A stretch of DNA of 49,271 nucleotides from Chlorobiota bacterium (lineage in GTDB: Bacteria > Bacteroidota > Ignavibacteria > Kapaibacteriales > NICIL-2). The position numbers were made by a program, and so were the translations under genes. Location of the stretch: assembly GCA_026416585.1 (NCBI GenBank), contig JAOAEV010000029.1:1-49271 (forward strand), read 5' to 3'. A model generated the notes under the pieces. The model was given only the letters and a program-made list of their open reading frames with translations. It was not told the origin of the DNA and searched no databases. Shown here in pieces: positions 27,876 through 30,647 of the stretch (its first letter is position 1; the number at the start of each line of letters is the position of its first letter).

Positions 27876-28448
27876 TCAACGTTCAAGCAGTAACCGGAGT
27901 TCTGAGACTGACAACTGTCGCCACTGCCCAATAGGCAGCGCAAGATCGTTGAGCCGTAGTCGACCGATCCCCTCACGTATCAACCGAATGACCGGATGCC
28001 CAATCGCCGCGAACATTCGACGCACTTGGCGATACTTTCCCTCTACCAGTACAATTTCAATCCATACATCGTCGAAGCTCTTTCGGATGCGCACAGGTGG
28101 AACACGAGGCGGGACCACAGGCTGTGGGTCAAGTATACGGGATCGTGCCGGTAGTGTTCGATAACCGCCAAGAACAATCCCTTGCTCGATTTGAGCAAGA
28201 CTTTCCGCTGATGGTAATCGCTCTACGAGTGCCCAATACGTTCGAGGGTGCCGCTCTGAAGGTTCGAGTAGCTTAGAGACAATCCATTTCTCCTCACTGA
28301 GGATAAGGAGTCCCTCACTATCCAGATCGAGACGTCCAACAGGGTAAACCCTCGGCGGAAACTGAAATTCTGACAATGTCCGATGTGTTGGATGCTCCGG
28401 TGTGAATTGGCTGAGCACGCCATATGGCTTGTTGAACGCGATGACCAT
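27876..28448 (-). CDS. Pseudouridine synthase, RluE/RsuA family without S4 domain
   Basis: Isomerises uridine to pseudouridine in rRNA. 190 aa. It begins directly with the catalytic domain (VIAFNKPYGVLSQF) and lacks the N-terminal S4 RNA-binding domain of RsuA/RluB, the layout of RluE, which modifies 23S rRNA. The catalytic motif is YPVGRLDLDSEGLLIL, with the Asp in GRLD as nucleophile. EGKYRQVRRMFAAIGHPVIR is also typical. It lies 9 bases after the OmpA-like gene and 65 bases before nuoF. RluE is the best guess; the modified site is inferred. Confidence 0.88.
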   Translation of the reverse strand: MVIAFNKPYGVLSQFTPEHPTHRTLSEFQFPPRVYPVGRLDLDSEGLLILSEEKWIVSKLLEPSERHPRTYWALVERLPSAESLAQIEQGIVLGGYRTLPARSRILDPQPVVPPRVPPVRIRKSFDDVWIEIVLVEGKYRQVRRMFAAIGHPVIRLIREGIGRLRLNDLALPIGQWRQLSVSELRLLLER

Positions 28449-28457
28449 CGAGCCTTA

Positions 28458-30647
28458 CTACTGACGATCCAGGTACGCGCGCGATGGACGTGGATGCTCA
28501 ACTTCAATTTTCACTGTTCGCGCATGGAAGCGGCCCTCTGGGCGATTGTTGTCATAGTTGCGCATATCAGGTCCGATTCCCAACGCCCTATCAATTGGAT
28601 ACTCCAGCAGTTTGGCAACTGCATCCGCCCGCTGTTGCGATAGTTCGAGGTTGTAACGCAGAGAACCGGTTCGATCTGTCGAACCAATGATCGATACGAT
28701 AGAACCTGTTGAGAGTCTCTTCCGCACGTATGTGATGACTGCACGACTTTGTGGCGAGGGCGTCGCCTTCCCAGCGTCGAAGAGCATGATAATGTAGCGA
28801 TCTACTTCCGTCACTTCTTGCCGAGATCGTAGCTGTTCGAGCGATTCCACTGCCAGTGGAATCGCTCGAACATATTCGTGCACACCTTTTCCTTCCTGCT
28901 CAATGCTCATTCGTACTACCAGCGGTTCGTGCTGTGAGCGCTGAAGTCGTCGCATCATGTCATTATCAAGTTCAATATCGAGAAGCTTTGGGCACTCCTC
29001 CATACCACTGTTTTTATACAGCACGCGTCGTGCTTGTTCGACCGATACATTCCAACGAACAATTGGCGTTGGACTAACGACATGCACCGAAAGCCGTAAG
29101 TGTGTCGAGCTACTTTGGAGCATCGTATCGCGCATCATAACTGGCTGCATTAATTCGTTGTCATCCGAGTAGAGTTCGACACGTTGATTTTCAGCGATTC
29201 CATCATCATGCCGCTCAGACGACATTTTCTGGGGAAGACCGACTGGTAGTAGTTTCACGCGTGACCGTTCAATACCCCACGTTTCTTCAAAATAGCGTGC
29301 TATCGTCTCTGCGCGCGATTGTGCCAGCAACTGCCAATGAGGGATCTGTTGCATTTCTCGACGAGATATACAGCCTTTGATACGGAGTCTAGTATTCGGA
29401 TTCTGTCGCAGACCGAAGCCGACGATGTTGAGCACATTGTAATAGGTGTTCATCTGATCGAGATCCACAACTGGCTGATAGTGGTCAGCATCGTATCGCG
29501 TTAACTGGTGGTAATGAAGATCAAGAGAGCTTGAACCGTAATCGAAAAAGAGATAGGGCAAAATTGGATGAAAATCTGTCCACACGATTTCGCGACATCG
29601 CAGGGTATCAAGTGCAACAAGCGTGGAATCGGGCATGCGTTCGTAGAGCTCGAGCGTCAGCGACGCAGTTTGGACATCTTTCTGTTTGGGAATACGCCGC
29701 TCATAGAGTTCTCGCCGATGAACGAACTCATACCGTGCTTGGTCGGTCTCGTTCACCACAGTACGATATTCAATGGAAAGTGCTAGGACCGTATCCGTCG
29801 CAAGCTCAGGATAAGTTTTGACGACTGTATCCCGCTCGATAAGCGTATCGCGTACAGTCGGTTTTGACGTCGGGATAGTAACCTTGACCGAAACACCGCC
29901 GCAAATCCAGTAAGACCGCCACTTCATCGAATACGCATGACCTACTACAGGGATGTTAATAAACATTTCCGGTACGATCGCAAATCGTTTCGCGATTGGG
30001 ATGTTGTACGAGACACCAGCGATCGTACTGGCTTCATGTTTCCGGGCAACGGGAATGTCAGCTTCGATAGTGCGGCGGACGACATCTCCTCCAACGAATA
30101 CAACTGATGCTCCGGGAACCTCAATAGATTCAGTCTGACGGAATTTTGCCGCATAGACCCACGCCAAACGCCCACCAAGATGAAAACGAATATTGTCATG
30201 GAACGGCGGCGTGTATTCAATCATCGCATTTGCACCAAACGAGGCAAATGATGCTGTGATCCGATGTGCAATAAATCCATCTGTCGGAATACCTGCAACC
30301 AAAAACCGCTGCTGTTCGAGCGCTGCAAGCCTGGCAGATTGCAAGGCAAAGCCAAGTCGCAACGCGAAGTGAATCGATGCGGTCGTTTGATTTGCAGTGA
30401 TGAGCGACGACAATGGAGAATTGACTAATGCCCCGAAAGATATTCCATCCCCCCACGCATCGTCGAATGGTACTGGCGGCTTATCAACGTCTCCTATTTG
30501 TGTAAAACTTCCTGTACGATGGCGTGTTAGCGCACCATGAGCATAAATTCCAAATTGAATGGGATTAGTGGTGTCGATAACAATCTGTCCCATCAAGGTT
30601 ATTGTTAGCCCGATCAGTAGAACAGCTGATAGGATTGCCGACTTCAT
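28458..30647 (-). CDS. OmpA family protein with two OmpA-like domains
   Basis: Outer-membrane/periplasmic protein of 729 aa. The signal peptide is MKSAILSAVLLIGLTITLMG. Residues about 25-270 look like an outer-membrane beta-barrel or beta-rich region. A first OmpA-like domain (about 360-490) starts LPYLFFDYGSSSLDLHYHQL and has AQSRAETIARYFEETWGI. A linker with beta-sandwich character follows. A second OmpA-like domain (about 615-720) has YIIMLFDAGKATPSPQSRAV, GSTDRTGSLRYNLELSQQRA. OmpA domains bind peptidoglycan. The ATG overlaps the upstream T9SS gene's stop by 4 bases. A perfect 39-base palindrome (28834-28872) encodes residues about 592-604 in the linker. Confidence 0.85.
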   Translation of the reverse strand: MKSAILSAVLLIGLTITLMGQIVIDTTNPIQFGIYAHGALTRHRTGSFTQIGDVDKPPVPFDDAWGDGISFGALVNSPLSSLITANQTTASIHFALRLGFALQSARLAALEQQRFLVAGIPTDGFIAHRITASFASFGANAMIEYTPPFHDNIRFHLGGRLAWVYAAKFRQTESIEVPGASVVFVGGDVVRRTIEADIPVARKHEASTIAGVSYNIPIAKRFAIVPEMFINIPVVGHAYSMKWRSYWICGGVSVKVTIPTSKPTVRDTLIERDTVVKTYPELATDTVLALSIEYRTVVNETDQARYEFVHRRELYERRIPKQKDVQTASLTLELYERMPDSTLVALDTLRCREIVWTDFHPILPYLFFDYGSSSLDLHYHQLTRYDADHYQPVVDLDQMNTYYNVLNIVGFGLRQNPNTRLRIKGCISRREMQQIPHWQLLAQSRAETIARYFEETWGIERSRVKLLPVGLPQKMSSERHDDGIAENQRVELYSDDNELMQPVMMRDTMLQSSSTHLRLSVHVVSPTPIVRWNVSVEQARRVLYKNSGMEECPKLLDIELDNDMMRRLQRSQHEPLVVRMSIEQEGKGVHEYVRAIPLAVESLEQLRSRQEVTEVDRYIIMLFDAGKATPSPQSRAVITYVRKRLSTGSIVSIIGSTDRTGSLRYNLELSQQRADAVAKLLEYPIDRALGIGPDMRNYDNNRPEGRFHARTVKIEVEHPRPSRAYLDRQ
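28834..28872. repeat. Perfect inverted repeat inside the ompA-like gene
   Basis: Arms of 19 bases (TGTTCGAGCGATTCCACTG at 28834-28852 and its exact reverse complement at 28854-28872) flank a single C at 28853. The palindrome is entirely within the coding frame and encodes VRAIPLAVESLEQ on the minus strand, just before the second OmpA-like domain. Arms this long and perfect are rare in a coding region. Confidence 0.9.

Follow-up and report, generated by a model that had tools for sequence, protein, structure and literature searches.

How can a long, perfect inverted repeat come to lie within a gene that still encodes its protein? The question is raised by a 39-base palindrome at 28834-28872 of the window, by which we mean the whole stretch of DNA analysed, contig C62 with its 49,271 bases, taken from a 2.06 Mb draft genome in 131 contigs. 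The earlier note on this stretch had described 19-base arms around a single base, fully inside an intact reading frame, and both the form (19+1+19) and the location, in a minus-strand frame of 729 codons, were confirmed. Where the host gene occurs in named records, these are metagenome assemblies under the labels Candidatus Kapabacteria, Candidatus Kapaibacterium and Chlorobiota.

Results

The palindrome and its host gene

The letters of the palindrome are TGTTCGAGCGATTCCACTG C CAGTGGAATCGCTCGAACA, with 19 of 19 pairs flanking the one C (Table 1), and the site lies in the middle of the contig. The host CDS is intact from its ATG start, and the palindrome makes up its nucleotides 1776-1814, beginning with the last base of the Tyr592 codon and ending with the middle base of the Gln605 codon, inside YVRAIPLAVESLEQ. 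Its centre falls on codon position 1, with position 1 pairing with 1 and position 2 with 3. According to a study of Nematomorpha, a centre on position 1 is phase 1, which has the weakest constraint of the three registers and is the commonest among the Nematomorpha repeats longer than 30 bp (PMC6649704). The assignment of the gene to the OmpA family in the earlier note stands, with a Pfam OmpA match at residues 623-681, 18 residues beyond the palindrome; the "first" of its two OmpA-like domains found no confirmation, since Pfam detects this one stretch in the whole protein. The predicted structure of the protein is poor (mean pLDDT 43, pTM 0.27, residues 599-617 under pLDDT 50), and the strand at 588-596 and short helix at 603-607 of this low-quality model were given no weight.

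Table 1. Coordinates of the palindrome and its host gene in the window
Feature	Position	Strand	Details
Palindrome arm, left on + strand, TGTTCGAGCGATTCCACTG	28834..28852		Coding sense: downstream arm, codons A(part)-V-E-S-L-E-Q(part)
Palindrome central base	28853..28853		C on +, G on -; first base of Ala599 codon
Palindrome arm, right on + strand, CAGTGGAATCGCTCGAACA	28854..28872		Coding sense: upstream arm, Tyr592 last base + codons V-R-A-I-P-L
Host gene, OmpA-family protein, 729 aa	28458..30647	-	ORF; PF00691 E 2.7e-12; three orthologues 63-67% identical

Chance expectation

Using the base composition of the window and a pair probability of 0.25, 19 pairs with a spacer of 1 are expected 1.8e-7 times per window and 7.4e-6 times per 2.06 Mb; allowing spacers of 0-8 raises the latter figure to 6.6e-5. 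When the synonymous codons of the host CDS were shuffled 1000 times with protein and codon set kept constant, arms reached 13 at most. The runner-up arm in the 49,271-base window, with a spacer of up to 8, is 10. The claim that chance formation is very unlikely is thus borne out (about 7e-6 per genome, 0/1000 codon shuffles above 13), and a chance origin of the palindrome is excluded. A 12-base direct repeat of part of the arm at 30311-30322 was also considered; by rough arithmetic about 0.3 such repeats are expected per 3 kb, and we rejected it as chance-level.

Copies and inverted repeats elsewhere

The palindrome occupies a single place in the genome. The search for further copies of an arm that the earlier note proposed, run over the whole genome with up to 3 mismatches, returned the two arms of the palindrome itself and two matches scattered elsewhere, each with 3 mismatches. 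The 35-base core was found with up to 3 mismatches in one of the eight family genomes and, in a wider search, in one of the 395 phylum genomes drawn, the sole carrier being the palindrome's own genome both times. A dispersed repeat, a REP-like element and a binding-site family were rejected on this distribution.

Inverted repeats with a spacer of up to 8 were then surveyed in five genomes of the genus. From the own genome it took in the window and 20 further stretches, together 360,090 of 2,060,340 bases; G003 and G004 contributed 20 stretches each, and G005 and G002 10 each, with G001 left out. The palindrome is the longest in the 1,560,090 bases surveyed. No other arm reached 17; the nearest rivals have arms of 16 and 15 (spacer 7) and 14 (spacers 0 to 8), and the runner-up with a spacer of up to 3 has an arm of 14. 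In the sampled part of the own genome it is the one arm longer than 14. Three Markov controls of 360 kb each, made for the own-genome sample, gave longest arms of 12, 10 and 11. Compared with this 10-12, the arms of 13-16 found elsewhere in the genus suggest that inverted repeats are mildly in excess across it. The survey contains 15 other repeats with arms of at least 12, five of which lie outside any stop-to-stop frame of at least 150 aa.

Several of the surveyed repeats deserve mention in their own right. In G004, two palindromes that start GTAGGGGCGAC and end GTCGCCCCTAC lie within 700 bases of each other (L088, 11430-11458 and 12078-12105), the first overlapping the repeat with the 16-bp arm; presumably the pair resembles a REP-like dispersed element. 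A 13-kb contig of the own genome (C129) carries similar short palindromes around TGAAC...GTTCA (L065, 4672-4747 and 11141-11320), possibly part of a repeat. In contig C78, also of the own genome, a palindrome with a 13-bp arm and a spacer of 2 (L050, 11525-11552) lies in the probable start region of a gene, which we take to be glyceraldehyde-3-phosphate dehydrogenase-like, and is a candidate regulatory dyad. Within a 294-aa ORF on contig C127 there is an inverted repeat with 12-bp arms and a spacer of 4 (L055, 18497-18524), a possible weaker counterpart of the 39-base palindrome.

Comparison with orthologues

Clear orthologues of the host protein are present in three of the five other genomes of the genus; the best matches in G001 (86% complete) and G004 are 28-31% identical. 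A wider contig search returned three loci (L037-L039), which coincide with L004-L006 and add nothing new. In the two genomes of the family that lie beyond the genus we found no orthologue spanning the site, the best match (L040) covering residues 5-426 only and the others being 26-30% identical. The three orthologues align across the palindrome site with no gap, yet of the 19 positions just 6, 7 and 8 are paired in them. About 5 pairs are expected there from base composition, against these 6-8 at 62-65% nucleotide identity. At equal length, the arms are therefore far more complementary in the window than in any of the three. By its ungapped alignment and the few pairs in the orthologues, the palindrome is neither an insertion nor a conserved hairpin, and its symmetry arose by substitution, amino-acid changes included. 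The earlier note had named non-palindromic codons in orthologues as a sign against function, and the outcome of the alignment speaks against function.

Codon choice alone would not have sufficed. With any synonymous codons, the congener peptides could reach at most 15, 16 and 16 of the 19 pairs. Even with the window's protein fixed, random synonymous codons at the same site would give the palindrome with a probability of 8e-7. Of 9960 placements across eight window genes, the host included, no more than 2 are able to encode such a 39-base palindrome. Together these figures indicate that amino acids changed as well.

Which residues changed can be read in part from the 14 codons concerned. Among the four sequences, Y592, V593, A595, A599 and S602 occur only in the window, and I596, P597, L598, V600 and L603 never vary, so that with five of 14 codons encoding invariant residues the stretch is under some constraint. 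V593 and A595 belong to the upstream arm; L603 is common to all three congeners, Q605 to two, and E604 and R594 to one each. As V593 and A595 are confined to the window and L603, E604 and Q605, on the downstream arm, are common with congeners, it is the outer part of the upstream arm that looks altered. A599 and S602, on the downstream side, are likewise window-only: residue 599 is variable, and residue 602 is S in the window and T in all three congeners. The first base of the S602 codon is paired with an A, which belongs to an ATT codon common to all four sequences. Copying in one direction from the downstream arm therefore leaves some bases unexplained, and calls for a further event or point mutation in addition. 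Distant homologues are indel-rich and poorly alignable at the site, which yields no polarity for the change but suggests that the protein probably tolerates change there. The orthologues differ from the host gene at about 35-38% of nucleotides, a divergence at which clustered change is inseparable from ordinary substitution.

Discussion

Origin of the palindrome

We consider it likely that the palindrome arose by mutation within the lineage of the window, through one or a few events of template switching, that is, of quasipalindrome correction. During copying of the gene, a short and imperfect inverted repeat, probably at ATTCCAC / GTGGAA in the IPLxVE codons, would let the nascent strand fold back. 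A brief self-templated extension would then turn one arm into the exact reverse complement of the other, and the outer part of the upstream arm (the VRA codons) was most likely rewritten from the downstream arm (the SLEQ codons). The result may have been tolerated since the altered residues vary among orthologues anyway and the codon register is the least constraining one. Of the explanations offered in the earlier note, template switching fits best, the palindrome being lineage-specific, ungapped and accompanied by amino-acid changes; the weaker repeat that would have been perfected is putative, with 6-8 pairs in the orthologues, barely more than the 5 or so expected. That A599 is also confined to the window slightly lowers our confidence in the template-switch reading.

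A functional mRNA hairpin, selected in the window species for slowing ribosomes before the OmpA domain or for shielding the mRNA from decay, is an unlikely alternative, although the fold itself is strong. An 18-pair stem with a 3-base loop is predicted in RNA, the 99-nt segment having an MFE of -35.3 kcal/mol (z -4.3) with none of 200 shuffles as stable, and the same hairpin is predicted in DNA at -21.5 kcal/mol. This agrees with the strong hairpin claimed from the letters alone, and its place, 18 residues ahead of the Pfam OmpA stretch, would suit a pause. However, ribosomes generally unwind such stems, and none of the three orthologues found keeps the hairpin. No terminator-like site was detected in 28400-29300 on either strand and no T run adjoins the arms, which disposes of an intrinsic terminator. 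No Rfam family exceeded its gathering score at the palindrome either; the lone match with E up to 1, a miRNA model, scored 21 bits (E 0.3) where the gathering score is 90, and was judged a chance hit. A conserved structured RNA was rejected on the low number of pairs in the three orthologues. The structured pause site put forward earlier is thus not supported on present sequence evidence, and beyond the strength of the stem nothing that we found favours a function in the window species.

Stepwise independent substitution by drift, with no template switch, is distinctly improbable. The divergence of the orthologues would have allowed many substitutions to accumulate, and S602 is at odds with copying in one direction. 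Against this stand the probability of 8e-7 at the site, codon shuffles that peak at an arm of 13, and, for spacers of up to 3, a next arm of 14 in 1.56 Mb. Still less probable is a site in DNA that a dimeric protein binds and that falls within the gene by coincidence. Perfect dyad symmetry is what such a site might show, but 19 perfect pairs are rarely needed by binding sites, the arm search recovered little beyond the palindrome itself, and the 35-base core is missing from the seven other family genomes and the 394 other phylum genomes drawn. The palindrome-binding protein proposed earlier accordingly gains no support from the searches.

An artefact of assembly or amplification, in the form of a fold-back chimera in the reads, is comparably hard to credit. 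The genome is a draft in many contigs, but a fold-back chimera would extend the reverse complement past the arms. Instead, both flanks lose symmetry after 19 bases and run on as open-frame sequence homologous to the three orthologues, and the site, mid-contig, would presumably fit within an ordinary read. Insertion of a mobile palindromic element of the Rickettsia type, suggested by the palindrome's place within an intact ORF, is next to inconceivable, being refuted, barring an exact replacement of the same length, by the ungapped four-way alignment, with no further copy in the own genome or in the 394 others drawn from the phylum.

Hairpin nuclease genes in the lineage

SbcD, part of the SbcCD hairpin nuclease, was found above the curated cut-off in none of the six genus genomes and none of the eight family genomes (G000-G007), three of the eight having weak matches only. 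For SbcC, the model matches short N-terminal segments in the genus, which score under the cut-off. In a sample of 61 genomes of the order, the family's eight included, SbcD passes the cut-off in 23 and has no passing match in 38, so that its absence is not peculiar to the family. A divergent SbcCD could also escape detection, since among 14 control genomes the SbcD model matched in 13 and passed the cut-off in 8, and the SbcC model passed in only 1. That absence of SbcCD favours such palindromes is speculation. A broader proposal, in which loss of SbcCD in the lineage permits unusually frequent or long in-gene template-switch palindromes that reshape proteins, with the 39-bp case as one visible instance of an ongoing process, we regard as quite unlikely, its probability being lowered by the many other order genomes that share the absence.

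Comparison with known systems

If the template-switch reading is true, the palindrome would be a clear bacterial example of a copying slip that alters several neighbouring codons and leaves a perfect hairpin in a gene, and a well-marked case in a lineage that has been little studied and is known through metagenome assemblies. The underlying process has already been established for both E. coli and yeast, and in that respect the palindrome is neat but unremarkable. Dutra and Lovett 2006 and van Noort 2003 reportedly deal with quasipalindrome-associated template-switch mutation in E. coli. In that organism, template switching at imperfect inverted repeats is described as yielding perfect or more perfect repeats (PMC7202029). 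A short inverted repeat that is perfect, or closer to perfect than before, results in both cases; in E. coli, however, the states before and after are tracked in reporter strains, whereas the window offers the after state alone, from which we infer the event. The portions of PMC6060812 and PMC7999016 at hand give no rate for comparison.

Palindromes within genes are known from further settings. Rickettsia palindromic elements, as described in PMC6649704, are palindromic DNA within intact genes and resemble our case in this respect, but they are inserted, whereas the window palindrome is ungapped and present in one place only. The same source reports numerous coding palindromes of up to 284 bp in the mitochondrial genes of four species of Nematomorpha (PMC6649704). 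The likeness lies in a perfect repeat with both arms translated in the phase 1 register; the Nematomorpha repeats are numerous and long, in contrast to the single 39-bp case in the sampled 360,090 of 2,060,340 bases here. Template switching has also been put forward as a source of RNA hairpins, in the account of PMC8794818. For yeast, PMC8604942 describes the coding gene REG2, in which a 5-bp arm became a 16-bp arm with five amino-acid replacements and template switching was inferred. REG2 shares with the window palindrome a perfect short inverted repeat in a coding gene with adjoining amino-acid replacements; the yeast case, of 16 bp, is polarised by close strains, and the one described here is bacterial, unpolarised and 19 bp long.
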